From IMG/VR virus record IMGVR_UViG_3300042691_022889, positions 1 through 25,811 of that record: a DNA stretch of 25,811 bases; one strand, 5' to 3'. The DNA comes from a virus. The notes under the pieces were generated by a model. The model was not told the DNA's origin. It made no database searches and was given only the letters and a program-made list of their open reading frames with translations. Numbering within the stretch: position 1 is the first letter of the stretch; every line of letters begins with the position of its first letter. The translations under genes were made by a program, and so were the position numbers. Positions 621 through 4,736 of this stretch are shown here, in pieces.

Positions 621-646
621 AGGGGGACTTCGGTCCCCCTTTTTTT
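621..646 (+). terminator. Rho-independent terminator after gp32 (UUCG tetraloop)
   Basis: A perfect 8-bp stem, AGGGGGAC (621-628) paired with GTCCCCCT (633-640), closes on the very stable TTCG loop (629-632) and is followed by a run of T to 646. It ends the gp32 transcript. The stem has no matching A-run on its left side, so it is a one-directional terminator for the plus strand. The T-run overlaps the stop codon (645-647) of the convergent 808-residue gene. Confidence 0.93.
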
Positions 647-3071
647 ATATCAATGAAATGGTTGTAAACGCTGATGGGTGCGAGAAATCTCTTGCCAATG
701 CGCGAGTAAATGAACTATCAGAAGTTCTTGCAGATGCTTTTGACATTTGTGTTGATGGTTGCTGCGGTGGACTAGATGGTCCTTGTTGATTGACAACATT
801 ATTTACCACAGGCGCTGGTGCTGCTTGCATCTGCATTTGATTCGATGCAAGTAACTTGCTTTGTTGTTCCATTTGTGCGCCACTACTACCCATGATAGGC
901 GTAACTGAAGATGCTAATGCTGGTGCATCAGAACCAACTGCTGAGTATGTATCAGTTGATTCTGGTGATGGAGTAGATGGTGCTGGTGCTGCAGCAGATC
1001 CACTTTCTTTCGTCCCTTGTGATGTTGAGGCAGTCATTGCCGCGCCAGTTTGAGGATTAACTTCCTTTCCATTATTCGCAACAACAGCAGGAGTTCCTGG
1101 TTTGTAAGGATTATCTGGAGTTCCACCACGTTTTGCAGTCTCAACTGGCTCAACATGCCATGTTTCTCCGCGAACTGGTCTCGTAAAACCATACTTTGCC
1201 ATCAAGCCGAGCTCGATTGCCTTATTTGCGTCTGGTGAATTAATATCAATCGCCAATCCACTTTCATGTCGACTTCTTCCAGGTGGTGCAGCTTTTGGCG
1301 GACCAAGTTTAGCATATAACGCTGCTTGCTCTTCTGGTGATCTATATCCAGAATTAACTTGAATTTTCTTTCCAGTTTTTTCATAATACTCTTTTGCAAG
1401 ATTAGCAAAACGAGTTTTGAGTTGCTCGTTCAATCCATCTAATTGAACACTTGAATCTTTGAGTCGAACATACTTCTTAAGATCCTGCGATGTTGCATCA
1501 CCACCACCAATGCCGCTCTTTACAGCAGCAATTGCATTTCGCACGCCACTAGTCACAATTGATCTGAATGATGGTTGTTGTGTTGGGATAGATGATGGTG
1601 GTGATGCAGCTGGCGGCGTCATAGATGAAGCAGAAGGAATTGTAGCTGCAGCAACAGGAGCTGCAGCGCTCACTTCACCAGTGCTTTTTGTTGTTTGAAC
1701 TTCTTCACTATAAAGTTCTTTTTCTGCATCATCTAATGCTGAAAATTCTTGCCAAAGTTGATATAGATCATACGCCATCCATATGCTACCAACAACTGTA
1801 ACTGCAGCGCTGATCCAACCCAGAACTGGAATGGTTGCAAGACCACCAGCAAGGGCAAGTCTTGTCCCAACTTTCGCAAATAGTTTTGGTGCTTTTTTCT
1901 TTACAAAGTTCAGAAAAAGATTCCATGCTTTTGACTTAACATTCTTAACAACTTTTGTTTGCGCAACTTTATTCACCGCAACTGCACCAGCGATTGCTCC
2001 ACCCACACCAGCTGCACTTGCTCCAGCTTGAAGTTTTATATCTGTCTTTTGAGCAGTTATTTGATCTTGAATAGCTGATGTTGCTCCAGTATCTCCAGAT
2101 TCTCGAGCTGCAATGGCTTCTTGTTTGAGCATTTCTGGATCATATGATTCTAAATTTTCATCTCGCATAGAATCAATTGCAGAGTATGCAAGATAACCAC
2201 CAGCAGCACCTGCCAGTAATCCACCTAATCCAATTCCACGACCAAATCTACCACGACGTTTACGATTGCCGCCTCTTCTTCCACCTTTTCTGCCTCTCCG
2301 TCCACCCCTTCCACCACCCATACCAAGAAGATCATCTATGCCAAATCCATCCTCACCGCTTTGGATGAGAATTTGATCTAACTTTTCGTGTACATTCTTA
2401 CTTTTTGTTTCCTTACCTAGACTCTTATAAATCGATTCCACTGTCTCAGTAAGTTTGATCATAGGATTTTCATCGGCTTGAATTGCCTTTGTTAAATCCT
2501 CTGTTCTCTTTAATGCAATATCTTTGCTTACAATTTTATTCGTGGCAGATTCTTTAAATCTACCACCACCAGCCATTCTAGAATCGAAAAAATACCCTTC
2601 TTTGACAGAGGGTGCAGATTTTCCTGTAAGTGACTTACGAATCAATCCAACATTTTTTTGTATATCAACAACAGCTTTCTTGAGAGATCTAAATTCTTTT
2701 GACGCTCTCTCAGACTTTTTAGCAGAAACTTTATCTTTCTTTTCGTCTTGTTTCTTATACTTTTCAAAAAACTCTTGTGCCTGTTTTACTTGATTGTCAT
2801 CAGCTTTTGCATATTTCTTAGCAAGTAATTTTCCAGCTTTCTCGCCAACTAAACTGTTTAGAAGTCCACTCATAAAACCAGTGGTTTGTTCAGTAGCCAT
2901 TTGCCACTGCTCTCTAATTTCATTCGTTTTTCTCTCAGATTGAAAGTAACCCATGCCTTCTGTTTCGGCTTTGATTGCACGCTCGAGAGTTTTTGGATCT
3001 GACTTCTTTTTCTGTTGAGCCAGAGCCTCACGGAGTTTTTTTAGATCTTTATCTGAGATGTTACTTTTCAT
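645..3071 (-). CDS. Tape-measure-like tail protein with M15 zinc-peptidase domain
   Basis: This 808-residue protein is probably a virion protein that cuts peptidoglycan. Residues 1-240 are charged and mostly helical. Residues 252-279 are a dense Arg/Gly tract. Hydrophobic segments follow at about 280-297, 347-367 and 404-434, the last strong enough to span a membrane. A Pro/Ala/Ser linker (465-500) leads to an M15 domain at about 535-645. That domain has SGYRS (574-578), the ligands H602 and D609 (in RHESGLAID), and E636 with H639 (in ETWH), so the whole HxxxxxxD...ExxH site is present. The tail from about 645 is low-complexity. It begins in an ATGA overlap with the preceding ORF and lies just after the gp26/51 pair, where tape-measure genes sit in many phages. 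Helices plus hydrophobic segments plus a late peptidase domain fit a tape measure, but this is inference; T4 gp29 itself has no such domain. No clear ribosome site precedes the start, which suggests translational coupling. Confidence 0.72.
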   Translation of the reverse strand: MKSNISDKDLKKLREALAQQKKKSDPKTLERAIKAETEGMGYFQSERKTNEIREQWQMATEQTTGFMSGLLNSLVGEKAGKLLAKKYAKADDNQVKQAQEFFEKYKKQDEKKDKVSAKKSERASKEFRSLKKAVVDIQKNVGLIRKSLTGKSAPSVKEGYFFDSRMAGGGRFKESATNKIVSKDIALKRTEDLTKAIQADENPMIKLTETVESIYKSLGKETKSKNVHEKLDQILIQSGEDGFGIDDLLGMGGGRGGRRGRKGGRRGGNRKRRGRFGRGIGLGGLLAGAAGGYLAYSAIDSMRDENLESYDPEMLKQEAIAARESGDTGATSAIQDQITAQKTDIKLQAGASAAGVGGAIAGAVAVNKVAQTKVVKNVKSKAWNLFLNFVKKKAPKLFAKVGTRLALAGGLATIPVLGWISAAVTVVGSIWMAYDLYQLWQEFSALDDAEKELYSEEVQTTKSTGEVSAAAPVAAATIPSASSMTPPAASPPSSIPTQQPSFRSIVTSGVRNAIAAVKSGIGGGDATSQDLKKYVRLKDSSVQLDGLNEQLKTRFANLAKEYYEKTGKKIQVNSGYRSPEEQAALYAKLGPPKAAPPGRSRHESGLAIDINSPDANKAIELGLMAKYGFTRPVRGETWHVEPVETAKRGGTPDNPYKPGTPAVVANNGKEVNPQTGAAMTASTSQGTKESGSAAAPAPSTPSPESTDTYSAVGSDAPALASSVTPIMGSSGAQMEQQSKLLASNQMQMQAAPAPVVNNVVNQQGPSSPPQQPSTQMSKASARTSDSSFTRALARDFSHPSAFTTISLI

Positions 3072-3313
3072 CTATTTTTTTGTGCTTGCATCAATTTTAT
3101 TTTTTCGTTTTGTTCATTTATATGATTCGTTAACATGCGAACATATATTTGTTTTTCCCACGGAATCAAATTGTCTAATTCTGTCAACGAATATTTGTGA
3201 TGTTGCATCAGAGAAAAATTCGTCGAGTAGTAATTCTTCAATTCATCATAACCAAGCGTCATTCGAAAAAATTTAAGATGCCCTCCAAGACCATATGATT
3301 GATATTTCCGCAT
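3068..3313 (-). CDS. Short ORF in gene 51 position; likely the -1 frameshift extension of gp26
   Basis: The frame is open for 81 codons in the -1 frame relative to gp26 and overlaps its 3' end by 55 bases. It contains SLTELDNLIPWEKQIYVRML, a pattern like the 'ST/SLxE(L/I)xxxxPxE(R/K)xIYxxxL' region of tail-assembly chaperone extensions. Two ATG codons are possible: 3313, or 3262 whose ATG overlaps the gp26 TGA (64 residues). Neither has a Shine-Dalgarno sequence at normal spacing, while gp26 has a good one. Together with the slippery site at 3265-3274 this suggests the segment is made mainly as a gp26 fusion of about 303 residues. Position matches T4 gene 51, whose product is needed for baseplate hub assembly, but I see no clear sequence match to T4 gp51. 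The stop TGA overlaps the next ATG. Confidence 0.65.
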   Translation of the reverse strand: MRKYQSYGLGGHLKFFRMTLGYDELKNYYSTNFSLMQHHKYSLTELDNLIPWEKQIYVRMLTNHINEQNEKIKLMQAQKNR

Positions 3314-3978
3314 TTAGAACATTTTACGTCTTGTTCTAACACTACGGAAGGTGTTGTAGCAAAGAAGTTTTTAATGCTTTTTACTTGCTCTAAAGATAAG
3401 TCATCTAGAAAGGCTAGTAGTTCTTCCTTGCTGACTTGATCTATACTATATTTTTGTTCTGCATCATAGACATACTCTAAGAACTCAGAAATAATCTCGT
3501 ATCCACCGTCAGTAAATTTGTCATCGAGTATTGATTGTGGGAGGTTTAATGATGGATATCGCATACAAACACCAATCTCATTTGTCAATGGAATAATATT
3601 TTTATGGTCATCATTAAATCTGTATTTTACATTCTTCAGTTCAAGATTAAATTCAACAACGTTGCCGCATGAATTCTCATCAACAACATTCGAACATGTA
3701 TAAACTAGTTCTGCAGTTTCACCCACAGAGTTAACACGAAGATGAATAAAGAACATCTCAACGTCGAAGATTGGTAATGACTCGACGTCAATATTATCTA
3801 AGCAACAGTTACCGATAATCTGTTTAATTGTCTTTAAAATATCTTGTACGTCATCGGATTCTTTTGCCATAAGAAGAAGTTTTTCTTCTTTAACAAGAAA
3901 TGGTCTGTATCGCACTTTTTTATCTAATGATTTCAAGTACACTTCATAAATTGGATGTTCAATTTTAGGTAATGCCAT
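3259..3978 (-). CDS. 26: Baseplate hub assembly protein gp26 (T4_baseplate family)
   Basis: In T4, gp26 is required for assembling the baseplate hub. The protein is 239 residues (T4 about 208). The N-terminal pattern LPKIEHPIYEVYLKS, followed by KVRYRPFLVKEEKLLLMA, is typical of this family in T4-like phages. Four cysteines occur as two pairs, C95/C104 (the second followed by Gly-Asn) and C220/C223 (CSKCGN), which could hold one zinc ion; this is inference. The start ATG at 3978 has a good ribosome site, GGAG at 3985-3988, six bases upstream. The C-terminal codons carry an apparent -1 frameshift signal leading into the next ORF. The gene lies between a tail-tube-fold gene and the tape-measure-like gene, a position that suits a tail-assembly chaperone. 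Confidence 0.88.
   Translation of the reverse strand: MALPKIEHPIYEVYLKSLDKKVRYRPFLVKEEKLLLMAKESDDVQDILKTIKQIIGNCCLDNIDVESLPIFDVEMFFIHLRVNSVGETAELVYTCSNVVDENSCGNVVEFNLELKNVKYRFNDDHKNIIPLTNEIGVCMRYPSLNLPQSILDDKFTDGGYEIISEFLEYVYDAEQKYSIDQVSKEELLAFLDDLSLEQVKSIKNFFATTPSVVLEQDVKCSKCGNINHMVLEGILNFFE
3265..3286 (-). promoter_or_regulatory. Putative programmed -1 ribosomal frameshift site
   Basis: On the minus strand the gp26 codons read TTA AAT TTT TTC GAA TGA. This holds two overlapping X XXY YYZ heptamers in the correct phase: A AAT TTT (3274-3268) and T TTT TTC (3271-3265). The purine-rich GGAGGG (3286-3281) lies 6 bases before the first and 9 bases before the second, like the internal Shine-Dalgarno that stimulates -1 slippage in E. 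coli dnaX. A slip at either heptamer enters the 81-codon frame before the gp26 stop and gives the same fusion junction (LNF-FRM). I see no convincing downstream hairpin. Efficiency cannot be judged from sequence. Confidence 0.65.
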
Positions 3979-3998
3979 AATTTACTCCATAGTTTAGT

Positions 3999-4736
3999 TT
4001 ACCAGCTTCCAGTTGCACCGCCACCAGCAAAAGTTCCACCACCGCCCTTGATTGGTTTTGGTTTGACTACTGGTGCAACTATTAGAGGTGGCTGTTGTCG
4101 TCTATTTTCAGTCATTGGTGGCGTAGATCCATTTGGTTCGTTTTTCTGTCCTCTTGGTTGTTCAGAGGCAGGCAATGCTGTATTAAAATTACCTGGTAAC
4201 CAATAATCATACTTAAAGATCACAGGTAAACGATGAATTCCATCGTCTGCCCAATTTAAATTCATTGCACCGATTGAAATCGGAAATGCATTGAATAGTA
4301 TTGCAGAGTAACTTTTATTTGATGTTGCAGTTATTTGTTCGCTTGTCGCTACTCCATCGAACTGGCATATTTCTATCTTTGAAGAAATATACTCATCTTT
4401 GTATCTTGGATTATAGTTATTGATTGGAACAATCGCATTCATCCATCTATCAAATAACTTTTTTTCCCACATATCACCAGCGCAAATAAATGTTAAAGTT
4501 AAATCATTAAATGCTACAGGCGCAGAGGCTACAGGGAGTCCAACTCCATATTGACGATTTTCTACTGTATTGATATTGTATCCAGGAAGTTCAGTCGATT
4601 CACACTGAAAACGAAGTTCATATGTGGCTAGATCTGCGATTCCTGGTGGAGGAGCGATACGAACTTCAAATCTAGAGGTTCTTGCAAAATCGTTGTGCTT
4701 ATTGAAGTGCGATAAAAAATCAGATACTTTGAACAT
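3999..4736 (-). CDS. Tail-tube-fold baseplate protein, probably gp54-like tube initiator
   Basis: This 245-residue protein probably adopts the gp19-type tail-tube fold and starts or continues the tube above the hub. Support is the pattern FEVRIAPPPGI... followed by LRFQCESTELPGY, an FNDLTLTFICAGDMWEKKLFDRWM segment typical of tube proteins, and a last strand pair near FNAFPISIGAMNLNWADDG with FKYDYWLPG, which resembles the T4 gp54 C-terminal region. T4 gp54 is longer (about 320 residues). After about residue 190 the protein is a Pro/Gly/Gln-rich tail with two GGG tracts, not expected in a tube domain. It begins in a TAATG overlap with the upstream gene. It could instead be a variant tube monomer; gp19 itself is not otherwise in this window. 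Confidence 0.6.
   Translation of the reverse strand: MFKVSDFLSHFNKHNDFARTSRFEVRIAPPPGIADLATYELRFQCESTELPGYNINTVENRQYGVGLPVASAPVAFNDLTLTFICAGDMWEKKLFDRWMNAIVPINNYNPRYKDEYISSKIEICQFDGVATSEQITATSNKSYSAILFNAFPISIGAMNLNWADDGIHRLPVIFKYDYWLPGNFNTALPASEQPRGQKNEPNGSTPPMTENRRQQPPLIVAPVVKPKPIKGGGGTFAGGGATGSW

Follow-up and report, generated by a model that had tools for sequence, protein, structure and literature searches.

The window analysed here, a stretch of 25,811 nucleotides of viral DNA (IMG/VR record IMGVR_UViG_3300042691_022889), encodes a homolog of T4 gp26 whose gene meets, at its 3' end, a short open reading frame in the -1 frame, which raises the question of whether these are two genes or a single gene read in two ways through a programmed ribosomal frameshift. 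T4 gp26 and gp51 have been catalogued as chaperones of hub assembly, gp51 being required yet absent from the particle (PMC3004832). The target of lambda gpG and gpGT is the tape measure, and equivalents of their -1 frameshift occur in other long-tailed phages (Xu et al. 2004, cited in PMC5009743), among which a 2016 review describes the tail-chaperone frameshift as conserved 'except T4' (PMC5009743). We found no report in the open-access literature of a frameshift in gene 26 or of gp51 as a paralog of gp26. Comparative analysis makes it highly probable that a programmed -1 ribosomal frameshift at the end of gene 26 yields a short and a long product, putatively a G/GT-like tail-assembly chaperone pair, and that T4-type phages have the paralogous genes 26 and 51 for these products. 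The frameshift is a strong comparative conclusion, and the G/GT role is one that we infer.

All features of the locus lie on the minus strand. Gene 26 (3978-3259) encodes 239 residues and is preceded by the Shine-Dalgarno (SD) sequence GGAG (3985-3988), with a predicted anti-SD duplex of -5.9 kcal/mol. Profile searches place its product, over the full gp26 domain, in the PF12322/phrog_150 family of T4 gp26 and gp51: PF12322 (T4_baseplate) covers residues 9-239 above its curated cut-off (E 2.6e-57), and phrog_150 matches with E 1e-62. The gene ends in TTA AAT TTT TTC GAA TGA, with the zero-frame TGA at 3261-3259, and these codons hold, in phase with gene 26, a slippery heptamer of the X_XXY_YYZ type, T_TTT_TTC (3271-3265), and a second possible heptamer, A_AAT_TTT (3274-3268), at which slippage would give the same product. 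An SD-like GGAGGG (3286-3281) ends 6 nt 5' of A_AAT_TTT and 9 nt 5' of T_TTT_TTC. The -1 frame tail, the piece usually annotated 'gp51', runs from CGA (3265-3263) to TGA (3070-3068), comprising 65 codons and a stop (3265-3068), and matches phrog_634 (E 1.3e-27); a virtual -1 fusion has 238 + 65 = 303 residues. Two ATGs, at 3313 and 3262, are usable by the -1 frame, and for the one beside the gp26 stop the predicted anti-SD duplex is weak (-1.5 kcal/mol). The stop codon of the tail is overlapped by the start of the next gene (ATGA at 3071; gene at 3071-645), which encodes 808 residues with an M15/VanY peptidase domain and is, by its position, a tape-measure candidate. An earlier note on this DNA had read the gp26 coordinates, the terminal codons, both heptamers, the GGAGGG spacings and the extent of the -1 frame to 3068 from the sequence, and had described a fusion of about 303 residues and a ribosome site at gp26 with none at the short frame; all of these statements were confirmed. 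Just 5' of the SD-like element, gene 26 also contains a stable hairpin (TTAGAACA..TGTTCTAA), itself enclosed by a larger stem (z -2.4, window positions 3270-3360, minus strand).

Junctions between gene 26 and the tail were gathered from IMG/VR and from annotated phages using retrieval patterns placed within the tail or gp26 and never at the slip site, covering cyanophages, pelagiphages, and T4-like phages of Pseudomonas, Stenotrophomonas, Aeromonas and Vibrio. Of 117 loci, 116 have the tail in the -1 frame with respect to gene 26, and an in-phase T_TTT_TTN is present at 109 of 110 distinct junctions (60/61 clusters). The one locus with another frame relation, L050, was considered as an in-frame fusion and rejected, as its indel lies further upstream in gp26 and its junction is a normal T_TTT_TTC. 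For codon statistics, we used 60 gp26 clusters with less than 60% amino acid identity. The Phe codon of the heptamer is TTT in all 60 of them, compared to 418/592 elsewhere in the same genes, and the codon 5' of this TTT ends in T in 60/60, compared to 476/830 elsewhere, the residue that it encodes varying among Ser, Asn, Asp and Ala. Other FF pairs in gp26 form T_TTT_TT in only 3 of 48 instances, and in a few lineages the last residue has become Leu (TTA), leaving the heptamer slippery. The junctions share descent, so that cluster counts overstate independence and multiplied codon frequencies are not true probabilities; the contrast is still very large, and conservation of the slip site, as judged from these codon comparisons, goes beyond chance. 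Of the two heptamers in the window, T_TTT_TTC is the only conserved site. The A_AAT_TTT heptamer, which requires an A preceding the Asn codon, is local to the clade of the window. Within the Straboviridae, the frameshift layout is found in KVP40, PVA23 and PX29, and is absent from Tequatrovirus, Lazarusvirus, Biquartavirus and Pseudotevenvirus.

An SD-like 5-mer occurs within 20 nt 5' of the heptamer in 22 of the 60 clusters, always with 8-10 nt between its end and the heptamer (exactly 10 in 17 cases), and the Glu-Gly codons that form it favour GAG over GAA (Fisher p 4.5e-5). In E. coli dnaX, an SD-like element likewise lies about 10 nt 5' of a heptanucleotide slip site; the spacing in these phages is of the dnaX type, and the GGAGGG of the window probably acts as a stimulator of this type. 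The two systems differ in that the dnaX shift leads to the short form and the gene 26 shift to the long one, and in that dnaX combines A_AAA_AAG with a defined 3' stem-loop, whereas 3' stem-loops accompany gene 26 only in some lineages, being clear in P-SSM2, S-RIM32, MED4-213, S-N03 and ACG-2014f. No significant 3' stem-loop was predicted in the window (z -0.48 for the 50 nt downstream and -2.1 for a 96-nt stretch). A conserved 3' stimulatory RNA structure was rejected as a general feature, the mean z being -0.95 downstream, where a control stretch gave -0.44 (Wilcoxon p 0.03), and the signal strong only in some lineages.

To relate these products to those of T4, we compared them with T4-type gp51 (RB32 and Meroveus), whose residues 1-201 are covered by PF12322 (E 4e-55) and whose C-terminus matches phrog_634. 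In profile comparisons with hhalign, the match of gp26 to T4-type gp51 (E 3.8e-11) ends at residue 200 and that of the -1 tail (E 4.6e-8) begins at residue 200, and the virtual fusions align with gp51 with no gap at the junction. Because the two matches meet at this residue and the alignment is free of gaps, T4 gp51 is the in-frame equivalent of the whole predicted frameshift product, joined at the same residue. Its homolog T4 gp26 ends three residues past its FF, where the short form ends. T4 gp26 is in this way the equivalent of the short product and T4 gp51 that of the long one; in the window, a gp51-type long form (a gp26 domain and a tail after the xFF motif) arises only through the virtual -1 fusion. 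Since gp51 consists of a gp26-like domain plus the tail, and gp26 is the short form, T4 would therefore make the pair from two paralogous genes, in contrast to the one gene and frameshift of its relatives. Two other correspondences were rejected: the short tail is not a homolog of the whole of T4 gp51, as it matches the C-terminal fifth only, and T4 genes 26 and 51 are not a frameshift pair, as they lie on opposite strands and no frameshift can therefore join them. The proposal in the earlier note that T4 genes 26 and 51 be recast as a G/GT pair consequently survives as a correspondence by way of gene duplication, and does not survive for gp51 as the short tail or for the two T4 genes as a frameshift pair.

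In T4-type phages, gene 26 is separate from gene 51. The two run divergently in RB32, Meroveus and Aeromonas phage 31, as in the genera Tequatrovirus, Lazarusvirus and Biquartavirus, and in tandem in the Pseudotevenvirus leN. In the latter (Cronobacter phage leN, positions 3001-4294), a long-form gene 51 and a short-form gene 26 lie on one strand with an 8-nt overlap, an arrangement that may represent a step between one frameshifting gene and the divergent pair of T4. In a tree of the gp26 domain, a branch (96/94) splits eight proteins of the two-gene type from fifteen of the one-gene type, and the gp51s group together (100/100). This tree has long branches and no outgroup, and the switch between one and two genes may have gone in either direction. 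We consider it probable that T4 obeys the G/GT rule after all: genes 26 and 51, both essential, would be a duplicated pair that encodes without recoding the short and long chaperones for which most relatives of T4 use one programmed frameshift. A single gene duplication would have taken the place of frameshifting in the T4 lineage, or frameshifting that of the duplicated pair, and the control of stoichiometry would have been solved in two ways, by gene dosage and by frameshift efficiency.

A real frameshift could also yield factors of hub or baseplate assembly whose role has nothing to do with that of lambda G/GT, in keeping with the classical view of T4 gp26 and gp51 as hub factors. Profile searches with gp26 returned no match to known tail-assembly chaperone families, and a Foldseek search of the PDB with its AlphaFold model (mean pLDDT 88.5) returned no significant match (E > 1). 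The highest Foldseek probabilities among the matches listed nonetheless correspond to 3fgx (0.21) and HK97 gp13 (2ob9; 0.20), both of which are tail-assembly chaperones (PMC9603447), a ranking that, for a predicted model, is suggestive only of chaperone likeness. Furthermore, the genetic logic and the position upstream of a tape-measure candidate are the same as in G/GT, and T4-type gp26 and gp51 are already named 'tape measure protein assembly chaperone' in a database record. On balance, we regard a hub role unrelated to that of G/GT as unlikely. Foldseek searches of the PDB with T4-type gp51 yielded nothing useful, sequence searches against solved structures nothing relevant, and NCBIfam nothing.

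The downstream gene had been called tape-measure-like in the earlier note, a designation that is based on its position and on weak tape-measure profile hits of the corresponding gene in S-CRM01 and MED4-213; in the window, only VanY/endolysin profiles match the 808-residue product. In this product (645-3071, minus strand), the M15/VanY domain lies near residues 547-617 and is accompanied by two hydrophobic Gly/Ala-rich segments. Tape measures of the T4 gp29 type came mostly from phages of enteric bacteria, Acinetobacter and Aeromonas, with Synechococcus not among the leading names listed.

If the tail were instead a separate small gene, it could be translated by coupled re-initiation at an ATG overlapping the gene 26 stop (ATGA or TAATG). 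In the window, an ATG overlaps the gp26 stop (ATGA) and would formally permit coupled initiation; KVP40, S-CRM01 and locus L012 likewise have an ATG at the stop or no more than a few bases away, and database annotators treat the tail as a separate gene. Across the relatives, however, no ATG, GTG or TTG is found near the gp26 stop in 32 of 59 clusters, and ATG is found in only 16. An SD sequence is strong at 12% of the ATGs beside the stop, close to the background of random positions (9%) and far from gp26 starts (58%). The interval from the last stop in the -1 frame to the conserved tail core contains no ATG, GTG or TTG at 48 of 110 junctions, and no ATG at 72 of 110. The tail has no start codon at all in S-MbCM6, ACG-2014i and S-CAM4, and only an internal TTG in S-CAM1 and Syn10; the tail gene is missing from the annotation of all five. 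Re-initiation would also leave the invariant in-phase T_TTT_TT unexplained, and in T4 gp51 the tail is fused to a gp26-like domain. Substitutions in the tail follow the -1-frame codon position (279, 126 and 652 at positions 1, 2 and 3 in 37 pairs), indicating that it is translated and selected in this frame. Taken together, these data render re-initiation very unlikely. The relatives, which keep the heptamer and the -1 frame and often lack a start codon for the tail, are the opposite of what the earlier note had named as evidence against a frameshift, namely homologs with no slippery heptamer and a short frame in other relative frames with its own ribosome site.

Some relatives depart from this layout. 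The Ackermannviridae (EP75, KN2-1 and Ds16CZ) have a -1 tail whose core is preceded by no start codon, and lack the canonical heptamer; in three loci of this family (L031, L133 and L134), gp26 ends in GAR ATT TTC ATT TAA, the -1 tail is open with no ATG before the core, and there is no X_XXY_YYZ heptamer. In Vibrio phage D506 (2190-2260), a related -1 tail follows TCA CTT TTC AAG TAATGG, with an overlapping ATG, and this lineage possibly initiates its tail separately. The conserved tail is unannotated in the cyanophage genomes L019, L020, L036, L037 and L039, and elsewhere, as in L035, L023 and L034, its annotation begins at an internal codon.

Transcriptional slippage on the T run, which would change the frame without the ribosome and yield an identical fusion product, is extremely improbable, as the run is mostly of 6 T (49 of 60 clusters, with 7 in seven and 8 in four), compared to the runs of about 9 for which bacterial slippage has been described (PMC5009743), many sites have C or A as the seventh base, and the constant spacing of the SD stimulator suits a ribosomal event.

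Under the preferred explanation, a programmed -1 ribosomal frameshift, most ribosomes would stop at the TGA at 3261-3259 and release the short form of 239 residues, while a fraction would slip back one base at U_UUU_UUC (3271-3265), probably aided in the phage of the window by pairing of GGAGGG with 16S rRNA. The slipped ribosomes would read the -1 frame to produce a 303-residue long form, consisting of gp26 and a helical tail of 65 residues. The short and long forms would be the counterparts of lambda gpG and gpGT, respectively, acting as tail-assembly chaperones for the tape-measure candidate directly downstream, and T4-type phages would obtain the same two products from the paralogous genes 26 (short) and 51 (long). 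Comparative sequence support covers the site, the frame relation, the missing starts in many relatives, the selection on the tail and the in-frame equivalence to T4 gp51, and from it we infer the shift in cells, its efficiency and the chaperone role; the proposal of a programmed frameshift and a G/GT-like pair made in the earlier note is in this way strongly supported by comparison.

The predicted translation resembles that of lambda G/GT in its short product and -1-frameshift-extended long product, in a shift site at the extreme 3' end of the first reading frame, and in the place of the pair before a tape-measure gene, here a candidate. It differs from lambda in that the window pair is unrelated in sequence (PF12322, with no match to a tail-assembly chaperone family), in that its proteins are larger (about 240 and 303 residues) and the slip site is U_UUU_UUC, and in that the type member of its phage group, T4, has been stated to lack the device. 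The T4 'exception' among long-tailed phages would be explained by its use of two paralogous genes.

These results place the frameshift throughout the wider relatives of T4, with two paralogous genes as its substitute in T4 itself. They also indicate that the annotation of cyanophage and marine phage genomes is often at fault here, giving a short 'gp51' of about 30-60 residues or overlooking the tail altogether. Furthermore, a role that can be tested, that of the long form in a chaperone pair, is proposed for gp51, the long-unclear 'hub assembly catalyst'.
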